A stretch of 64,000 nt of DNA from Pseudarthrobacter sp. AL07 (GTDB lineage Bacteria > Actinomycetota > Actinomycetes > Actinomycetales > Micrococcaceae): assembly GCF_029960665.1 (NCBI RefSeq), contig NZ_JASBRB010000001.1, positions 124,001 through 188,000 of the forward strand, written 5' to 3'. Position numbers and translations under genes: made by a program. Below, in pieces: positions 41,900 to 52,300 of the stretch. Every line of letters begins with the position of its first letter. The stretch's first letter is position 1. Under the pieces are notes generated by a model, which saw only the letters and a list, made by a program, of their open reading frames with translations, ran no database searches and was not told where the DNA came from.

Positions 41900-44638
41900 G
41901 TGGCATCACTTATCGAAAAACTTCTCCGCACGGGTGACAAAAAAACCCTGCGGCAACTGCGGAACTATGCCGACTCGATTAATGCGCTCGAAGACTCGTT
42001 TAAAACCTTCACGGATGCTGAGCTCCGCGAGGAAACTGACCACCTCCGCGCCCGCCACCAGGACGGCGCGCAACTGGACGATCTCCTGCCGGAGGCTTTC
42101 GCCGCGGTGCGCGAGGCCTCGTCCAGGACCCTGGGCATGCGTCACTTTGACGTCCAGCTCATGGGTGGCGCCGCACTCCACCTCGGCAACATCGCCGAAA
42201 TGAAGACCGGCGAAGGTAAGACGCTCGTGGCCACCGCGCCCGCCTACCTCAACGCACTCACCGGCAATGGTGTCCATGTCATCACGGTGAACGACTACCT
42301 TGCCGAATACCAGTCAGACCTCATGGGCCGGGTCTACCGGTTCCTTGGCCTGACGAGCGGTTGCATCCTGTCCAACCAGGATCCCGCGGTGCGCCGGCAG
42401 CAGTACGCCGCGGACATCACCTATGGCACAAACAATGAATTCGGTTTTGACTACCTGCGCGACAACATGGCCTGGGACCAGTCAGAACTCGTCCAGCGCG
42501 GCCACAACTTCGCCATTGTTGATGAGGTCGACTCCATCCTCATCGACGAAGCCCGCACGCCACTCATCATTTCCGGCCCGGCGCAGGGCGACACCAACCG
42601 GTGGTACAGCGAATTTGCCAAGGTAGTGCAGCGGCTGAAGGCCGGTGAGGACTACGAGGCGGATGAGAAGAAGCGCACCGTCGGCGTCCTGGAAAGCGGC
42701 ATCGAAAAGGTGGAGGACTACCTGGGCATCCAGAACCTCTACGAATCCGCCAACACTCCGCTCATCGGCTTCCTGAACAACGCCATCAAGGCCAAGGAAC
42801 TGTTCAAGCGGGACAAGGACTACGTCATCCTCGACGGCGAAGTGCTGATCGTTGATGAACACACTGGCCGCATCCTGGCCGGGCGCCGCTACAACGAGGG
42901 CATGCACCAGGCCATCGAGGCCAAGGAAGCCGTGGAGATCAAAGCCGAAAACCAGACGCTGGCCACGGTGACGCTCCAGAACTACTTCCGGATGTACTCC
43001 AAGCTGGCAGGCATGACCGGCACGGCCGAGACTGAGGCCGCCGAGTTCATGGGCACGTACAAGCTCGGCGTGGTGGCCATCCCCACCAACCGGGACATGC
43101 AGCGCCTCGACCAGTCGGACCTCGTGTTCAAGAACGAAAAGGTGAAGTTCGACGCCGTCGTAAAGGACATTGCCGAGCGTCACGAGGCGGGCCAGCCCAT
43201 CCTTGTGGGCACCACAAGTGTCGAAAAGAGCGAATACCTCTCCGGGCTGCTCGCCAAGGAGGGCATCAGGCACGAAGTCCTGAACGCCAAGAACCACGCC
43301 CGTGAGGCGGCCATCGTTGCGCAGGCCGGACGCAAGAGTGCTGTCACGGTGGCCACCAACATGGCAGGCCGAGGCACGGACATCATGCTGGGCGGCAACG
43401 CCGAATTCACCGCGGTGGCCGATCTCGCCAAGCGCGGGCTGGACCCGGAAGAGAATTCGGAAGAGTATGAAACCGCCTGGCCTGCTGCCTTGGAGGCCGC
43501 CAATCAGTCCGTGAAGGACGAACACGAGGAAGTCTTGAACCTCGGCGGGCTGTATGTCCTGGGAACTGAGCGGCACGAGTCCCGCCGTATCGACAACCAG
43601 CTCCGTGGCCGTTCCGGCCGCCAGGGCGACCCGGGCGAATCACGCTTCTACCTCTCCCTGACCGATGACCTGATGCGGCTCTTCAACTCCGGCGCAGCCG
43701 AGCGGTTGATGAACAGTTCCGTTCCGGATGACGTGGCTTTGGAATCGAAACTCGTTTCCCGGGCCATCGCGTCGGCGCAGGGCCAGGTTGAAGGCCGCAA
43801 CGCCGAGCAGCGCAAGAATGTCCTGAAGTACGACGACGTCCTGAACCGCCAGCGCGAAGCCATCTACGGTGACCGCCGCCGGATCCTCGAAGGTGACGAC
43901 CTGCACGAGAAGGTCCAGTTCTTTGTCGAGGACACCATCATCGCCCTGATTGAATCCGCCACCGCCGAAGGCAATGGCGACGACTGGGACTACACCCAGC
44001 TCTGGACCAATCTCAAGACTCTCTACCCCGTCAGCGTCACAGCGGAGGAGATCATTGAGGAAGCCGGTGGCAAGTCCAAGCTCACTGTTGAATTCCTCAA
44101 GGAAGAACTGCTCTCCGATGCCCGCGTGGTCTACCAGACCCGTGAAGAGACCATCGGTTCCGAAAGCATGCGCGAGCTGGAACGCCGCGTGGTGCTCTCA
44201 GTCATCGGGCGTAAGTGGCAGGAACACCTCTACGAGATGGACTACCTCAAGGAAGGCATCGGCCTGCGTGCCATGGCACAGCGTGACCCGCTGGTGGAAT
44301 ACCAGCGCGAGGGCTTCACCATGTTCCAGAGCATGATGGAGGCCATCCGCGAGGAAAGCGTCGGCTTCCTGTTCAACCTTGAAGTTGAGGTGACTCCGGC
44401 CCAGGATGTGGTGGTTCCGGACGCAGCCGGCGGCCACACGGAGCACGTTGAGCCGCAGATCCACGCCGCTGGCCTGGAAGCGCCGGAGAAGCCTGCCCAG
44501 CTGCAGTACACGGCTCCCGGTGAAGACGGCGCATCCGAGACCCGGGTGGAAGCCCGTTCCTCGTCCAAGTCCGGCAACCCGGCCAAAGCTGCTGCGCAGG
44601 ACGCCACCAAGCGTCCGGCCAAGAAGAAGCGCCGCTGA
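41900..44638 (+). CDS. secA: Preprotein translocase ATPase SecA
   Basis: 912 residues. Walker A GEGKT (104-108), DEVD box ([18 protein letters not shown]), the IRA1-type motif, [13 protein letters not shown] and the C-terminal helical wing are all present. SecA drives protein export through SecYEG. GTG at 41900; a TAGACT -10-like hexamer at 41850-41855 overlaps the preceding stop. The C-terminus is Lys/Arg-rich and lacks the Cys-rich SecB-binding zinc motif, as in other actinobacterial SecA1 proteins. Confidence 0.97.
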
Positions 44639-44686
44639 TCCAGTCACGGTTTCCAGGCAAAAACCTGTAGGCCGCAGCGGGAGACA

Positions 44687-44722
44687 AGAAGTGCCCGGAG
44701 CAATTTAGCTCCGGGCACTTCT
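44687..44722 (+). terminator. Terminator after secA
   Basis: A perfect 15-bp stem (44687-44701 and 44708-44722), 6-nt loop AATTTA, then a short T/C tract. Because the Rv3235-like gene ends on the other strand, it could act for both. Confidence 0.8.
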
Positions 44723-44761
44723 TCGTCTGTCACCGCGTGGCTGCCAATTGTGGGCAAACGG

Positions 44762-45229
44762 TCAGCCGACCATAAACTCGGTCACGCGCCAGACCTGCTT
44801 GCTGCGTTCAAGACGGACCGCCACCGCCCGGGCCCGGACATCGTCGACCACCACGGCGCTTGCCTCATAAATGCCCGGGGCGACCTCGCAGGCGCGGACC
44901 GAGCGCACGATGGAGTTTCTGTGCAGCCGGGCCAGGGATGGCGAGGCGGACCGGCCCTGTTCGCGGCGGATCAGGGCCGAGCGGTGCTGCAGAACGGCGA
45001 GGCAGCGCGGGTCCAGGCGCCGCGCGAGCTGGTGGATCGGCCGGATGCCGGCGAGGACTTCCATGGCCGCCTGGACGGTGCTGCGGGTGATTGCCAGGAT
45101 TTCTGAGGTCTCGTCTGCAGCATGCAGGGGCGCGACCGGCGCGGAAGTGGTGCGCGGAGGTGCCTGGCGGACTGCTGCCGCGCTGCCCGGGTTAACCGGG
45201 GCGGAGTGGATTGGCGTAACTGCGTACAT
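44762..45229 (-). CDS. Rv3235-family protein
   Basis: 155 residues. A disordered N-terminus (about 1-40, Pro/Ala/Thr) is followed by a compact domain: ILAITRSTVQAAMEVLAGIRPIHQLARRLDP, VVVDDVRARAVAVRLERSKQVWRVTEFMVG. It matches the actinobacterial Rv3235 family, which lies near secA1 in mycobacteria; function unknown. ATG at 45229 with AAGGGG upstream. Follows the LysM gene by 43 bp on the same strand. Confidence 0.82.
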   Translation of the reverse strand: MYAVTPIHSAPVNPGSAAAVRQAPPRTTSAPVAPLHAADETSEILAITRSTVQAAMEVLAGIRPIHQLARRLDPRCLAVLQHRSALIRREQGRSASPSLARLHRNSIVRSVRACEVAPGIYEASAVVVDDVRARAVAVRLERSKQVWRVTEFMVG

Positions 45230-45272
45230 GTGATTCCCCTTAGTCGTGAGTTGATGAATGTCGGAACGTCGG

Positions 45273-46106
45273 TCAGGCCGCGGAAGGTGCTTTCAATATC
45301 TGCCCGGGCAGCAGGACGTGCGGGCTCTCGCCGATCTGGGATTTGTTGGCCTCATACCAGCGGGGCCAGTGCAGGGCGACGTCCACATCCGACGCAGCCG
45401 GGCCCAAGTGGCCGGAGGCGATGTCCCACAGTGTGTCGCCGGCCAGCACTGTGACCTCACTCAACGCCGGCAGTGTGGTCTGCTCCGCCCGGACGGGCTG
45501 GGCAGCCATCAGGCCGGGGTCCAGAACCGGCGGGCTGGGACGCCAGTCGGGCCGGACCGCAGCTGCAGGAGTTTGGCTGGTCCGGTCTCCTGGGTCCCCG
45601 GGAGCTGTGCCCTCTGCTTCAGGGATCTGCGGGTGGCCGCTGGTGGGGGACCACTGCGCCTGGATGGCGACGCCGTGGACCGGTACGTCCTGGACGGCCA
45701 CTTCCTGGGTAGGTACCCAGGCAGGTCCGGCCGGTGTTGCGGCAGCGTGAGCCAGCGGTGCCGTCAGCAGCTGCACCGACAGTACGGCCACGGCAAGCCG
45801 ACGCATAAATGCAGGGCAGCACTTGCCTGCCCTGGCGGCGGCCCGCCGCCTGCCGCACTTGTCAAGCACGGCAGCCGTTGCCGCCATCATCATCGAGAGG
45901 ACCCACCACGCCACGATGGCCAGTCCTGCGGCAATGGCCACAGCACCAAGTAGGTCATCGAGATCCGGGCCTTGGCGGCGGGCTGTTGATACTTGCCACC
46001 GATCCACCATGCCCCCGCCGGCGACGCAGAGGAAGAATCCCAACAGGAGGATGGACGCCGCCATAACGGCGTCTGCGCGGAGCCCGCGTGTTGTACCGGC
46101 CGCCAT
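45273..46106 (-). CDS. LysM-domain membrane protein
   Basis: 277 residues. Two N-terminal membrane segments (15-33, 52-78) are followed by a basic loop with three cysteines, a third signal-like segment (103-121, ending LAHAAA), a Pro/Ala/Thr-rich linker, and a C-terminal LysM domain (about 216-275; VTVLAGDTLWDIASGHLG), which binds peptidoglycan. The topology puts LysM outside the cell. ATG at 46106 with AGGAACC upstream. The upstream intergenic region carries the phased GTTTGAT repeats described below. It diverges from the tandem Sm-like protein. Confidence 0.82.
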   Translation of the reverse strand: MAAGTTRGLRADAVMAASILLLGFFLCVAGGGMVDRWQVSTARRQGPDLDDLLGAVAIAAGLAIVAWWVLSMMMAATAAVLDKCGRRRAAARAGKCCPAFMRRLAVAVLSVQLLTAPLAHAAATPAGPAWVPTQEVAVQDVPVHGVAIQAQWSPTSGHPQIPEAEGTAPGDPGDRTSQTPAAAVRPDWRPSPPVLDPGLMAAQPVRAEQTTLPALSEVTVLAGDTLWDIASGHLGPAASDVDVALHWPRWYEANKSQIGESPHVLLPGQILKAPSAA

Positions 46107-46123
46107 GGTGGTTCCTATCTAAG

Positions 46124-46180
46124 GTTTGATGCTGTTTGATGTTGTTTGATAAATCTAGGATCAGTTTGACGCAGTTTTAG
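46124..46180. repeat. 10-bp-phased GTTTGAT direct repeats, array A
   Basis: GTTTGAT starts at 46124, 46134 and 46144; after one degenerate 10-bp slot, GTTTGAC at 46164 and GTTTTAG at 46174. All are in 10-bp phase. The array lies 18-74 nt upstream of the LysM start and upstream of the divergent Sm-like gene's promoter. Interpreted as a site for a protein binding head to tail. Confidence 0.7.
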
Positions 46181-46218
46181 TGGATTTGTCCAGAGACTGG
46201 AGTGAAGTCTTCGGTGAA

Positions 46219-46248
46219 TTGACCTCGGATGAAGCCGCGCCCTACGCT
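46219..46248 (+). promoter_or_regulatory. Promoter of the tandem Sm-like gene (leaderless)
   Basis: TTGACC (46219-46224), 18 nt, TACGCT (46243-46248). The ATG is seven nt downstream of the -10 box and no ribosome site is present, which implies a leaderless transcript. Confidence 0.65.
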
Positions 46249-46255
46249 TGGCCCC

Positions 46256-46828
46256 ATGCGTTGGGATGCTCTGTTCAGTGACATGGAGGCACAGTTCGCC
46301 GAGGGCGAGCGGCTGGGGCTTGATGCTGAGATCTCTGAACGGGCGAGAGCGGAAACCGCCTCCGTAGCCCTGGCTGACCGCTTGCGGGGTTCCCTGGAGA
46401 GTCACGTGGCAGTGCACCTGGTGTGCGGACGCGTCTTCGAAGGAACCTTGAGTCATGCCGGCGCCGACGCCCTGGTCCTGAACGAGATGCGTCACCAGGT
46501 GCTGATCCCGTATGGCGCGGTGGCGAGCTACGCTGGCCTGGGGCGGGTCTCTATGGCCGAGACGTCGCAGGTACGGCGCCGGATCGGATTGGCGCATGCG
46601 CTGCGGGGCCTCGCGCGGGATCGGGCCGAACTCGGAGTTACACTGCGTCACATGCCGGAAAGCGGCGCTGGGCTGGCGGGAGTCATTGACAGGGTAGGCA
46701 GTGACTTTTTGGACCTCGCGCTGGTTACCCCCGGGGAGTCCCGGCGGGCATCGCAGGTCCGGCAGGTTGCCACGATTCCGTTTGCGGCGCTGGGGGCGCT
46801 CCGGTCATGGAGTGCAGGGGAACTCTAG
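46256..46828 (+). CDS. Protein with two apparent Sm-like (LSm) repeats, function unknown
   Basis: 190 residues. Residues 51-92 (VAVHLVCGRVFEGTLSHAGA, then D-L-L and LIPYGAVASY) and 127-182 (LGVTLRHMPESGAGLAGVID, then GSDFLDLALV and TIPFAALGAL) follow the same pattern: two strands, a Gly, a GxD turn, hydrophobic strand and a final IP-A strand, as in Sm/Hfq small beta-barrels. This is inference from pattern, not from a recognised family. The start ATG at 46256 suits the leaderless promoter. There are no membrane segments; an RNA-related role is a guess. Confidence 0.6.
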   Translation: MRWDALFSDMEAQFAEGERLGLDAEISERARAETASVALADRLRGSLESHVAVHLVCGRVFEGTLSHAGADALVLNEMRHQVLIPYGAVASYAGLGRVSMAETSQVRRRIGLAHALRGLARDRAELGVTLRHMPESGAGLAGVIDRVGSDFLDLALVTPGESRRASQVRQVATIPFAALGALRSWSAGEL

Positions 46829-46840
46829 CGCCGCGGGCCG

Positions 46841-46904
46841 GAGTTTTTTGTTCACCTAATGGGACTTTGCCGCCCGTCTGAGGCGATTATCTGGACAAAA
46901 ACTC
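46841..46904. repeat. Dispersed palindromic element, copy 2
   Basis: The right arm (TTATCTGGACAAAAACTC at 46887-46904) is the same as in copy 1 at 11663-11680, and TGAGGC upstream is shared too. The left arm (GAGTTTTTTGTTCA, 46841) is degenerate. As in copy 1, it separates two convergent genes. Confidence 0.75.
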
Positions 46905-46945
46905 AACGGACGGTGGCGCATCAGAGGCGGCCCCCTGGGCCTGGG

Positions 46946-47161
46946 TCAACCTTGCTTGGCTTTTGCTTCCTGGATCATGCGGCTGGCCTCGGCGTAACGC
47001 TCTTCGATGTATTGCTCCAGCATCTTTTCCTCCACGCGCCACTGCCCGCGGCCACCCACCTGGATGGCTTTCAGTTCTCCGCTGCGTACCAGAGCGTAGG
47101 CTGCCGGGGAGTTGATCTGCAGTTGTTCAGCAACATCGGCAAGAGTGAGGAATCTGGGCAT
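46946..47161 (-). CDS. Small HTH protein of the BldC/excisionase (MerR-type HTH_17) group
   Basis: 71 residues: FLTLADVAEQLQINSPAAYA forms the helix-turn-helix, followed by LVRSGELKAIQVGGRGQWRV, the wing, and a helical C-terminus EKMLEQYIEERYAEAS. The fold is the small MerR-like winged HTH of BldC and excisionase-family proteins. BldC binds DNA direct repeats asymmetrically and head to tail, which fits the phased repeats upstream of this gene and the LysM gene. The start ATG at 47161 was chosen because the family begins here; the longer open frame to 47323 runs across the promoter. Direct target evidence is absent. Confidence 0.8.
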   Translation of the reverse strand: MPRFLTLADVAEQLQINSPAAYALVRSGELKAIQVGGRGQWRVEEKMLEQYIEERYAEASRMIQEAKAKQG

Positions 47162-47197
47162 AGTTTCATTTTGCCATTGAAGGTGCCATCTAGTGCG

Positions 47198-47244
47198 GTT
47201 ATCCACAGTTTCATGTTGTTTGGTCGTTTTGACTTTTGTTCCGG
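47198..47244. repeat. 10-bp-phased repeats, array B
   Basis: GTTATCC (47198), GTTTCAT (47208), GTTTGGT (47218), TTTGACT (47228) and GTTCCGG (47238) are in 10-bp phase. The segment 47208-47224 matches 46134-46150 of array A at 15 of 17 positions. It lies between the HTH gene (minus) and the SAF gene (plus). A DnaA-box sequence TTATCCACA overlaps it at 47199-47207. Confidence 0.6.
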
Positions 47245-47314
47245 GGCCCATGCCGTAACAATGAGGTGTCCGGGCGCAGCCAACCGACTGGGCCGGAGCA
47301 AGGGGGAGAAAAGC

Positions 47315-47959
47315 ATGAGTCACGATGCAGCTAGTACGGGTGCCAGGTTGAAACCGCCGTCGTGGAGGGATCCCCGCCTGCTGGTTGGCCTATTGCTGGT
47401 CCTGGCATCGGTGGTGGGAGTGATCTCCCTGGTTGGCAGCGCCGATCGGACCACCGAGGTATACGCCGCCCGGGACTCCATTGCGGTGGGGGAGAAGCTG
47501 ACCGTGGACAATGTGGTCCGGGCCAAGGTCCGCCTGGGTGAGACCGAACAGCATTACGTCACCGTTGAAGCAGGGCTGCCGGACGGGCTGGTGGCGGTCC
47601 AGAGAATCGGCAAGAACCAGTTGGTGCCGAAGGAAAGCCTGGCCACTGTGGATGCGTTGGACCGCAAGCCCGTGGCCGTGACCGTTGATGAAGCACTGCC
47701 GCCGCAGGCAGTGGCCGGGACCCGGGTGGATGTCTGGGTTGCCTTGCCGGATGCGCGCAACGGTTTTAGTGAGCCAAAGCTCCTGCTGCCTGGTGCGGAA
47801 ATTGCCCAGGTGACCGCCGGCTCCACGGCTTTGGGGTCCTCCCGCAACACGGTGCTTATGGTGCTGGTTGCCGACAGCCACATGCCGGCCATCCTCGGCG
47901 CGCAGGCGAACCAGGCCAAGATTTCAGTGGTGTGGAACCCGGGCGGCGGGGCCTCATGA
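47315..47959 (+). CDS. SAF domain protein (CpaB/RcpC-like)
   Basis: 214 residues. One membrane segment (22-41) is followed by a SAF domain (about 52-125; AARDSIAVGEKLTVDNVVRA, VGE-rich) and a C-terminal CpaB-like beta region. CpaB/RcpC proteins take part in Flp/Tad pilus assembly in the envelope. The ATG at 47315 has AGGGGGAG six nt upstream. The next gene overlaps it by ATGA and encodes a CpaE-like ATPase. No other tad genes are in the window, so a pilus role is inferred. Confidence 0.8.
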   Translation: MSHDAASTGARLKPPSWRDPRLLVGLLLVLASVVGVISLVGSADRTTEVYAARDSIAVGEKLTVDNVVRAKVRLGETEQHYVTVEAGLPDGLVAVQRIGKNQLVPKESLATVDALDRKPVAVTVDEALPPQAVAGTRVDVWVALPDARNGFSEPKLLLPGAEIAQVTAGSTALGSSRNTVLMVLVADSHMPAILGAQANQAKISVVWNPGGGAS

Positions 47960-49254
47960 GCATCCCCGTGGTCACAGTGGGCCAGTCCCGCGAGGATGTG
48001 GTGGGCGGGTTGGAGCGGCTCCACGGTCCCGTCACGGTGGTCCGGCGATGCGCCGAACTCACTGAACTGCTGGCCGCCTGCCAGAGCGGACTCGCTCGGG
48101 CGGCGGTTGTGGCCGACGGTTGCGAGGGCCTGACTGCGTCGCTCGTTGACCGCCTCGGCGCCGTGGGCGTGGCGATCATCGCCCTCACGGATGACGCCGA
48201 CGAGGCCGCCAGGCTGCGGGGGATCGGCGTGGCGTCCGCACTGACCGGGGTGGAGTCTGCCGCCCTGGCCGGCAGGATTGCCGAGGCGGTTTCCCAGCTG
48301 ACCGGCGCTGCCACGGTTGCGACGTCCGGGAGTGGGCTGGGGGACACCAGCGCCGCGCTGCGCCAGCGTCCCGCCGACCAGGCGGGCGTGCCGCCGGCCT
48401 CCGGCGCGGGCAAGATCATTGCCGTGTGGGGTCCCGCCGGTTCGCCGGGCCGGACTTTCGTTGCGGCCAACATTGCGGGGGAGTTGGCTGCGGATGGCAA
48501 ATCCGTGCTCCTCGTCGATGCCGACAGTTACGGGGCCAGCATGGCGGCAGTCCTGGGCCTGCTGGATGAATCTGCCGGGATCGCACAGGCCTGCCGGCTT
48601 GCGGACCAGGGACTGCTCGACGCCGATGCGCTACTGAAGGTCGCCAACCCTGTCACCACCAAGCTTGGTACTTTCCGGGTCCTGACCGGCATTACGCGGG
48701 CGGACAGGTGGACGGAATTGCGGGCGGCCGCCCTGTCGCTGGTGTTGGAACGCGCGAAGGAGGTTGCCGACGTCGTCGTTGTGGACACAGGTTTCTGCCT
48801 GGAGGCGGACGAGGAACTTAGCTTCGATACGATGGCTCCGCGGCGGAATGCCGCGACCCTGCGGAGCCTGGAACTGGCGGACACCGTCTATGCCGTTGGG
48901 GCAGCCGATCCGGTGGGGGTTCCCCGGCTGGTCCGCGGACTCGCGGAGCTCGAGCTGGCAGTACCAAATGTTTCACCTGTTGTGGTGATGAACAAGGTCC
49001 GGGCGGCGGCGGTGGGGAGATCCCCGGAACGCCAGCTGAAGGATGCCTGGGGGCGGTATGGCCCATCAGCGAAAATCGAGGCCTTCCTTCCGGCGGACAG
49101 CGCCGCAGCCGATGCGGCGCTGCTGGGCGGCTCGCTGTTGCTCGAAACGGCGCCGGATTCCAAGCTCAGGCAGGCGATCGCCAAATTGGTTTGTGCACCT
49201 GTCCAGCAATCCTCCCGGTCCTCTGTATTTTCTTCCACACCGAGGCTTCAGTGA
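47956..49254 (+). CDS. CpaE/TadZ-like ATPase homolog with altered Walker A
   Basis: 432 residues. The N-terminal part (1-115) resembles a receiver-like CpaE domain without phosphorylation motif. The ParA/MinD-like domain begins at about 152: GKIIAVWGPAGSPGRTFVAA, where the usual deviant Walker A KGGxGKT is GPAGSPGRT (159-167), with Arg in place of the catalytic Lys. DAD (188-190) is the Walker A' region. The protein should bind nucleotide poorly or differently. It follows the SAF gene with an ATGA overlap; together they resemble CpaB-CpaE of Tad systems. Confidence 0.78.
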   Translation: MSIPVVTVGQSREDVVGGLERLHGPVTVVRRCAELTELLAACQSGLARAAVVADGCEGLTASLVDRLGAVGVAIIALTDDADEAARLRGIGVASALTGVESAALAGRIAEAVSQLTGAATVATSGSGLGDTSAALRQRPADQAGVPPASGAGKIIAVWGPAGSPGRTFVAANIAGELAADGKSVLLVDADSYGASMAAVLGLLDESAGIAQACRLADQGLLDADALLKVANPVTTKLGTFRVLTGITRADRWTELRAAALSLVLERAKEVADVVVVDTGFCLEADEELSFDTMAPRRNAATLRSLELADTVYAVGAADPVGVPRLVRGLAELELAVPNVSPVVVMNKVRAAAVGRSPERQLKDAWGRYGPSAKIEAFLPADSAAADAALLGGSLLLETAPDSKLRQAIAKLVCAPVQQSSRSSVFSSTPRLQ

Positions 49255-49320
49255 AAGGGCTAGGCTCACCGTAGGAGCTGCAACGGTGCAGCATCAAACT
49301 TGTGATGGAGGCGTTTGTTG

Positions 49321-52300
49321 ATGTCGTCTGGATCCAGCGTGGAGGATCAAGCCTTGGCTATTGGTGACCGGGAGGGATTCCTGGCGGATTATTACCAGCA
49401 TCTAGCCGAAGAGGATGCCCGGACGTATTCCCGGGAGGCGCTGGCCAGCCGTGCGGAAACGCACCGCGGTGTCGCCGCGAACCGGCTGCCGGGCCAAGCG
49501 CAGGTTTCCATCGTCAACGAGCAGGACAGCAGCGTCGTCTATGTCGTCACGGACGATATGCCTTTCCTTGTTGACTCGGTTAATGCCGAGCTGGTGCGCC
49601 AGAACGCCGCCATCGGGCTTGTACTGCATCCACTGTTTGTGGTCACCCGGAACCGGGAAACGGGACAGCTGGTAAAAGTTGACCGCGTCCCGTCCCACAT
49701 CGGTCTCTCCAGCGGTGATACGGCGGCGATGCCCATGCTCTCGCACCTCATCGCGCAGGGCGAAAACGCCTCCCACATGGAGTCGTGGATCGCTGTGGAA
49801 ATCAACCGCGTCTCCGACGAGGCAAAGGCCTCGTTGCTGGACGGGCTGGACCGCATCCTGGGAGACGTGCGCGCGGCTGTCGAGGACTGGCCCAAGATGC
49901 GCAACAAGGCCCAACAGATTGCCGCGAGCCTGGACCAAGTGTCCCACCCGGCTCAGATTGCCGAGCTGCGGCAGGCGCAGGAACTTTTACGCTGGCTCGA
50001 CAACGGCAACTTCACCTTCCTCGGATACCGTGAGTACGACCTCGTTACCGTTGACGGTGAAGATGTACTGGAACTGCGTGAAGACAGCGGTCTCGGACTG
50101 CTCCGGGCGAAGCCGGGTGCTCCGCACATGCAGCACCTCACCGACGCCGGCCGAAAAAAGGCCCGCGAAAAGCGGGCACTCGTAATCACCAAGGCAAACT
50201 CACGGTCCACCGTCCACCGCCCCGCGTACCTTGACTACGTCGGCGTGAAGAGTTTTGACACGGCAGGCAACGTCAACGGCGAGCGCCGCTTCATCGGCCT
50301 GTTCGCGACCAGTGCCTACGCCGGATCCGTCCGGAACATCCCCGTCGTGCGCGAAAAAGTGGACGCCGTGCTGGGCAACGCCGGCTTCCCGCCGGACTCA
50401 CACTCCGGCAAGGACCTTTTGGGGATACTGGAGACGTACCCCCGCGACGAGCTGTTCCAGATCGAGACCGAGGACCTGGCGGCCACCGCAACCGGCATCC
50501 AGAGATTGCAGGAGCGGCGACGGACCCGGCTGTTCCTCCGGCCGGACATCTACGGACGTTTCATGTCCGCGGTGGTCTACCTTCCGCGTGACCGGTACAC
50601 CACCAATGTCCGGCTCCGCATCGAGGAGGAACTGCGGACCACGTTCCAGGCAGAGACCATCGACTACGAGGCGCGGATGACCGAATCCGCGCTCGCCCGC
50701 CTGTTCTTTAGGATCCGCTTGCCCAAGGGCGCTGAGGTCAGCCACGTTAACGCTGATGACCTTGAGGCGCGGCTGGTCCGGGCGGCCCGGTCGTGGAGTG
50801 AGGGCATCACTGAAGTCCTGCGGGAACGCGGCGCCGATGAGCAGTCGAAGGAGCTCGCCGCGATCTGGTCGGAGGCTTTTCCGGCCGGATACCGCGTGGA
50901 TTACGAGGTTGAGGACGCTCTGGAGGACATCGCCCGTTTCGAGAAATACGGGGCTGAAGCCGAGCGCACAGCCGGTGCAAGGCAGGAACGGCCGGGCGTC
51001 CACGTGTACTTGCCCAAGGGTGCCGGTGAAGTCCTCGAAGAAGATGCCCGCGTCAAGCTGTACATGTTGGAGCCCAAGAGCCTGAGCCAGATCCTCCCGT
51101 TCTTCCACAATCTTGGACTCGAGGTGCTGGATGAACGGCCCTTTGAGATCGAGACAGCTGACCAGCGGGACTTCTTCCTCTATGACCTCGGGCTGAAATA
51201 CCCCGCCGGCATTGATCCGCTGGCCACAGGACAGCTGCTGGCCGACTCGTTCGGTGCCGCCGTATCCGGCGCTGTTGAGTCGGACAGCTTTGACCGGCTG
51301 GTTCTGCGTGAGGGGATGCAGTGGCGCCAGATCACGGTCCTGCGGGCCTACGCCCGGTACATGCGGCAAATGGGGAACACCAACTCGGTGGGTTTCATGG
51401 CGGACACTTTGCTCGCCAATCCCGGTGTCACCAAGGCCCTGACGGCTCTTTTCGCGGCCCGGTTCGACCCCGCCCTGAGCGGGACCGAGCGCCTTGCGGC
51501 GCAGGAGAAGGTCCGCGGTGAGCTGTCAGCTGCCATTGACGAGGTGGCAACCCTCGACGCCGACCGTGTGCTGCGGACCTTGGCGAACCTGATCGAGGCG
51601 ACCCTGCGCACCAACTACTACCAGTACAAGACGCACCTGAGCTTCAAGCTCGATCCTGCCCGGGTTGAGGGGCTGCCGTTCCCGCGGCCGATGTTCGAAA
51701 TCTGGGTCTATTCCCCACGGGTCGAGGGCGTCCACCTCCGCTTCGGCAAGGTGGCCCGGGGCGGCTTGCGCTGGTCTGACCGGCGCGAGGATTTCCGGAC
51801 GGAGATCCTTGGTCTGGTGAAGGCGCAGACCGTCAAGAACGCGGTCATTGTTCCCACCGGCGCCAAGGGCGGTTTCTTCGCCAAACGGCTGCCCGACCCT
51901 GCAGCGGACCGTGCGGCCTGGATGGCGGAGGGTATTGAGAGCTACAAGACGTTCATCCGGGGCCTGTTGGACCTCACTGACAACCTCGTTGCCGGAACTG
52001 AAGGCGAAACTGTTGTGCCGCCGTCGGACGTTGTAAGGCACGACGACGACGATTCCTACCTCGTGGTGGCGGCGGACAAGGGCACGGCTACGTTCTCCGA
52101 CATCGCCAACGGGCTTGCGGCTGAATACGGGTTCTGGCTTGGTGACGCGTTCGCCTCCGGAGGTTCGGTGGGGTATGACCACAAGGCCATGGGCATCACG
52201 GCCCGAGGCGCCTGGGAGTCGGTAAAACGCCACTTCAGCGAGCTCGACGTGGACACCCAGACCCAGCCGTTCAGCGTGGTGGGCGTGGGCGACATGTCCG

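Follow-up and report, generated by a model that had tools for sequence, protein, structure and literature searches.

A conserved 10-bp-phased repeat array, probably an operator, beside a small winged-HTH gene of Pseudarthrobacter and its relatives

The locus and its phased repeats

The window, a 64,000-nucleotide stretch of the Pseudarthrobacter sp. AL07 genome, contains a short array of direct repeats between two divergent genes. One, on the minus strand (45273..46106, start at 46106), encodes a 277-aa LysM-like membrane protein whose LysM match falls below the Pfam cut-off. The other, on the plus strand (46256..46828, start at 46256), encodes a 190-aa protein with two predicted Sm-fold domains, hereafter called LSm. 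Convergent with LSm is the gene of a 71-aa winged-HTH protein (46946..47161, minus strand), hereafter the HTH protein. A SAF-like gene (47315-47959, plus strand; below the Pfam cut-off) and, downstream of it, a ParA/MinD-like gene (47956-49254, plus strand) are divergent from the HTH gene. Beyond the LysM gene, and possibly in the same operon, lies a gene for a DUF6459 protein (44762-45229, minus strand). Between the LSm and HTH genes, whose 3' ends face each other, lies an inverted repeat at 46845-46901 (16-nt arms, 81% complementary, with 25 nt between them and runs of A and T), which is perhaps a two-way terminator.

The array has four clear units on the plus strand. Three read GTTTGAT exactly, namely R1 (46124..46130), R2 (46134..46140) and R3 (46144..46150), and a fourth, R5 (46164..46170), reads GTTTGAC, all as the first-pass annotation had listed them; the phase of R1 to R3 is conserved. 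A degenerate unit identified by eye, R4 (TCTAGGATCA, 46154..46163, plus strand), keeps the 10-bp phase, and its position reads nCTTGATTCA, again by eye, in many relatives. The same annotation had counted GTTTTAG at 46174 as a further unit, which we drop: across 46174-46180 the commonest base of a column is shared by at most 81 of the 143 aligned genus loci. Tandem Repeats Finder reports a 10-bp unit at 46124-46150.

Phasing, not the number of motifs, is the striking feature of the array, since GTTTGAY alone shows no enrichment in the window (14 matches against a shuffle mean of 10). A genome-wide pattern search, which had been proposed from the first look at the sequence, showed the site to be single: three GTTTGAY units joined by N3 linkers, with at most three mismatches, occur once in the 3.86-Mb genome, and the backwards-pattern control gave no match. 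The two-unit form with at most two mismatches gave 19 matches genome-wide against 19 for the reversed control, so that most are chance occurrences. A large regulon in the AL07 genome is rejected on the same ground, as two-unit matches appear only at control level.

Four of the 19 two-unit matches fall in the array-HTH locus, one of them upstream of the HTH gene. This last site (GTTTCATGTTGTTTGGT, 47208..47224, plus strand) consists of two phased units and may be autoregulatory. In an alignment of 141 genus loci, TTTG columns repeat 10 bp apart upstream of the HTH gene, right after TTATCCACA. The latter (47199..47207, plus strand) directly precedes the units, is found unchanged in 130 of 142 genus loci, and is what we take to be a perfect DnaA box. 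TTATCCACAGNTT occurs a single time in the AL07 genome, at this site.

Conservation of the phase and its register with a putative promoter

Comparison across the genus revealed a strict spacing. We searched 150 genomes with the 190-aa LSm protein, obtained matches in 148 (G027 and G111 had none) and analysed 145 loci, leaving out G119 (contig edge), G132 (split match) and G135. Pairs of TTTGA separated by 5-60 bp were then counted over the 200 bp that precede the LSm start. Across the 145 loci, pairs at 10, 20, 30 and 40 bp numbered 210, 135, 55 and 39 (439 in total), and no other distance had more than 8; 9 bp had 4 pairs and 11 bp had 3. Shuffles, which here and for the promoter columns below preserve single-letter composition only, averaged at most 0.15 pairs per distance, and the opposite strand of the same 145 upstream regions held no TTTGA pair. 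Two or more TTTGA in 10-bp phase occur in 141 of the 145 loci, and three or more in 97. The mean array score tells the same, being 10.2 at period 10 versus 3.7-4.0 at periods 7-9 and 11-14. By eye, GATG and the other unit letters are kept across genus loci while linker letters vary, which argues for maintenance of the units rather than mere inheritance. The conservation among related genomes on which the first-pass annotation had staked its claim is thus found in the genus loci.

The array overlaps a putative promoter of the LysM gene. When 143 of the 145 genus loci were anchored on TGTCYA, whose columns are fixed by construction, a second gap-free block emerged 18 bp from the anchor; on the minus strand the two read T(G/A)GACA, 18 bp, CA(A/G)A(C/A)T. 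In AL07 these correspond to a putative -35 element TGGACA at 46187..46192 (T(G/A)GACA in relatives), which is the anchor itself, and, after the 18-bp spacer, to a putative -10 element CAAACT at 46163..46168, called from column conservation, both on the minus strand. Positions 2 (A) and 6 (T) are the most important in -10 elements, and here all 143 loci have the A and 140 have the T. Transcription would start at 46156, within R4, where 127 of the 143 loci carry A at +1, that is, T on the strand of the array. LSm likely has a promoter of its own, which was recognised from conservation by eye (TTGACC, 18 bp, TACGCT; 46219..46248, plus strand); with 7 bases from TACGCT to the ATG at 46256, its transcript is probably leaderless. 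A strict sigma-70 scan of 46090-46280 reported no promoters; both promoter calls are made from conservation.

With the LysM promoter so placed, R5 coincides with the -10 element and R1 to R3 lie in the initial transcribed region. The register is fixed: of 363 transcript-side TTTGA units, 280 match the register of the putative LysM -10 element exactly and 68 are off by one bp. A strip of protein on the array would span the LysM promoter from -10 to about +33, the position of a repressor. The conservation of R5 may be due, in part or wholly, to its role as a -10 element.

The phase extends beyond the genus. We took 40 loci of the family and order from matches to the HTH protein (P0001), and LSm lies within the retrieved stretch in 34. 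These 34 loci have a mean array score of 7.7 at period 10 versus 3.6-3.8 at the other periods from 7 to 14, and 25 TTTGA pairs at 10 bp; phased units are absent from three of them (L208, L222 and L225). In an order-wide sample, TTTGATGNNGTTTGATG with at most one mismatch matched 77 of 198 genomes and the reversed pattern 5 of 198; the remaining 121 genomes had no two-unit match at this threshold. Comparing the positions of the pattern and of the best HTH match by hand, we found the two close together, on the expected side and strand, in 62 of the 77 matching genomes. Fourteen of the 77 have their match elsewhere than at the HTH locus; 7-8 of these belong to genus g37, and two lack any HTH match. 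The remaining genome of the 77, G354 (locus L243), carries the array between the divergent genes in inverted orientation relative to the others.

At the level of the class, the two-unit pattern matched 16 of 197 genomes (control 3). Twelve of the 16 lie outside the order, and four of those 12 matches sit at the HTH-LSm locus. A further 20 class loci were picked by HTH match, of which 17 contain LSm, with an LSm start that is unsure in some (such as L265 and L273). Nine of the 17 have at least two units in 10-bp phase, often GTTTGCTT or GTTTACAT instead of the genus unit, and eight have no phased units; these per-locus unit lists, like those behind the residue-34 counts given below, were drawn with a permissive motif and without shuffles. 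A count of pair distances in the class loci, made with shuffles, gave 10 pairs at 10 bp, 3 at 20 bp and one each at 16 and 26 bp. The phase thus outlasts the letters.

Genus g37 (family f6) carries similar phased repeats at other places as well. They precede six ORFs (L230, L232, L233, L235, L236 and L238) which, judged by eye, seem related and share a start of the type M(Y/F)R(I/V)xT. In L227, L229 and L234 they stand upstream of an ORF that looks LipB-like by eye. The motif can thus have other users or targets.

The HTH and LSm proteins

The HTH protein matches Pfam HTH_17 (E 1.7e-12) and the NCBIfam excise domain (E 2.2e-08), and its AF2 model (pLDDT 93) has a fold like those of BldC and Xis. 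Structural alignment with BldC gave Z 8.3 for 6ama_A (rmsd 1.9 over 54 residues) and Z 8.0 for 6amk_B (rmsd 1.2 over 51), and with excisionases Z 7.7 for Pukovnik Xis, 6.5 for RdfS and 5.4 for lambda Xis. The top structural match, 6hn7_B (Z 9.1), is a small DNA-packaging protein, not a BldC or an Xis, and on so small a domain a Z of about 8 could reflect a common arrangement. Foldseek with the same model returned no match at E <= 0.001. A PDB search with the sequence by itself returned no sequence relative at E up to 1; the best PDB match of its profile was Pukovnik Xis (E 0.015). The "BldC-like gene" that had been noted about 800 bp from the array is this one, and the predicted fold bears out the description.

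The HTH gene is linked to the locus. An HTH match lies beside LSm in all 145 genus loci, running from residue 1 in 142, and the DNA-binding core is nearly invariant among the fetched loci. Of 28 genomes in which the HTH match is absent or weak, 27 also lack LSm. The exception, G409, has LSm with no HTH beside it, and there the array was not seen. This joint loss of HTH and LSm may reflect loss of the whole locus and is not proof of binding.

BldC of Streptomyces is described as binding direct repeats as head-to-tail multimers of variable length (PMC5859096; 6amk, 6ama). Like it, the HTH protein is a small, stand-alone, MerR-like winged HTH with no effector domain and a similar predicted fold. 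The BldC interface residues F21, W31 and L43 align with L14, L24 and V35 here, still hydrophobic although the residues differ, while the DNA contacts K26, R30, H46, R47 and R48 face P19, A23, R38, G39 and Q40 and are not kept. The repeats also differ, being 9 bp in the BldC sites described (AATTNNNNC; PMC5859096) and 10 bp in the array (GTTTGATG). Whereas the BldC regulon is large, the AL07 genome holds one or two sites. That the HTH protein is a BldC ortholog is rejected on two counts: the DNA-contact residues differ, and the spacing is 10 rather than 9 bp.

Excisionases and their kin offer the other comparison. The predicted fold resembles Pukovnik Xis (4j2n), lambda Xis (2ief) and RdfS (8dgl). 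With the Xis, Apl and Cox factors the HTH protein shares an HTH_17/excisionase-type winged HTH and repeats about one helical turn apart, to which it would bind. RdfS and lambda Xis are reported to oligomerise along DNA; each RdfS protomer takes up about 10 bp, and no consensus motif was found for RdfS (PMC11963761). As recombination directionality factors of mobile elements, Xis and RdfS are unlike the chromosomal HTH gene here. Apl of phage 186 is described as repressing pR and pL by cooperative binding to direct repeats 10-11 bp apart (PMC7498355). The likeness to Apl and Cox is one of described function, comprising repression and direct repeats that lie between promoters at a spacing of 10-11 bp. 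Apl and Cox, however, come from phages and have a second role in excision at att sites, whereas here the locus is chromosomal and its genes are of envelope type. Going by the gene descriptions, no integrase is among the genes described within 42500-50000. A search of open-licence PubMed Central found no paper on the LysM/LSm/HTH locus.

The second small protein is a candidate for an Hfq-like protein of Actinobacteria, as judged from its predicted fold. The AF2 model of LSm (pLDDT 93.6) starts with a helix, which two barrels follow. Each half aligned with Hfq/Sm chains at a Z of about 7, where the tool's trust level is Z 8, with rmsd 1.6-2.3 over 61-67 residues. The 50 Foldseek matches listed are Hfq or Lsm, apart from the non-Sm entries 2x4j and 9bxa; the best whole-length structural match is the viral protein 2x4j (Z 11.9). 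Neither Pfam nor NCBIfam gave any match. The earlier description of a tandem Sm-like protein thus agrees with the predicted fold, and the two domain databases are silent on it. M. tuberculosis reportedly has no Hfq homolog (PMC11188477), which makes LSm of interest by itself. Other proteins of actinobacteria, PafBC among them, are also described as having Sm folds (PMC8223512).

A probable operator and its alternatives

We propose that the array is a dedicated operator of the 71-aa HTH protein, which would bind it and repress the LysM operon as well as its own gene, and we consider this reading probable. Four observations favour it: the array is conserved in the genus, the family, the order and part of the class; most order-wide matches of the pattern (62 of 77) fall at the HTH locus; a similar phased site stands upstream of the HTH gene; and the HTH protein has a predicted BldC/Xis-like fold. 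The first-pass annotation had posited a direct-repeat operator of the BldC type. Conservation, locus linkage and fold speak for such an operator, and the protein is not BldC itself.

Copies of the HTH protein would bind the array head to tail, one protomer per 10-bp unit, with the contact between neighbours setting the 10-bp distance. The strong units R1 to R3 would seed the filament, and R4 and R5 would be filled cooperatively. As R5 overlaps the LysM -10 element, the filament would exclude RNA polymerase from the LysM promoter. The weaker second site upstream of the HTH gene would confer negative autoregulation. BldC is described as reading an AT-rich minor groove and a C-G pair (PMC5859096), and by analogy each protomer might set its wing against the TTT tract while the recognition helix reads GATG.

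The array could instead act as RNA. In that case AUCAAAC repeats beside the Shine-Dalgarno sequence in the LysM leader would be bound by LSm, which would control translation. Such binding is conceivable, given that R1 to R3 lie downstream of the putative LysM start and are transcribed in this model, in an unfolded leader (MFE -1.7 kcal/mol, z -0.41), and that a protein with two predicted Sm-fold domains co-occurs with the array. We nevertheless judge this reading unlikely, for several features make better sense on DNA: the units are in register with the LysM -10 element, the HTH gene is preceded by a similar phased site, and unfolded RNA offers no evident reason for a spacing of exactly 10 nt. 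Moreover, the inverted array of G354 would give a leader with the complement of the repeats, and G409 retains LSm yet has no array.

A combined reading, to which we also give a low probability, is that the strip is read twice, as DNA by an excisionase-like filament protein that controls LysM transcription and as leader RNA by LSm acting as an actinobacterial counterpart of Hfq. HTH and LSm would then be an ancient paired module of transcriptional and RNA control, with DnaA input via TTATCCACA.

Another DNA-binding protein might own the repeats, for instance an OmpR/PhoB-type response regulator, leaving the HTH gene a mere neighbour. Response regulators such as PhoP and PmrA are described as binding direct repeats (PMC5859096), and genus g37 has similar repeats before other genes. 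A pleiotropic regulator should have more sites than are seen, however, with the three-unit pattern present once in the AL07 genome and the two-unit pattern at control level; the linkage of the array with the HTH gene, seen in the order and in parts of the class, also speaks against it. We regard this explanation as quite unlikely. Intrinsic curvature or slippage without any dedicated protein is very improbable: the TTT tracts are in helical phase and Tandem Repeats Finder does score a tandem repeat, but curvature should tolerate 11 bp as well as 10 (3 TTTGA pairs versus 210 at 10 bp), GATG is kept while linkers vary, and conservation across families argues against recent slippage.

If the array is indeed the operator of the HTH protein, the head-to-tail binding of BldC and Xis would extend past phages, mobile elements and Streptomyces development. 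The binding mode is already known; what would be new is a dedicated chromosomal 10-bp version near its own regulator, traceable across orders. On the operator reading, this mode would have a dedicated site near the regulator gene in several orders of the class. One regulator would also be tied to a widespread cluster of LysM-like, tandem Sm-fold, HTH, SAF-like and ParA-like genes. The natural sites vary in unit number and letters at constant spacing, which makes protomer spacing and base recognition directly testable. One such variation has a counterpart in the protein: HTH residue 34, which is Q or K, tracks the unit letters, with TTTGA in the majority at 15 of 25 Q loci versus 1 of 14 K loci, in raw counts over loci with units and with kinship not corrected for.
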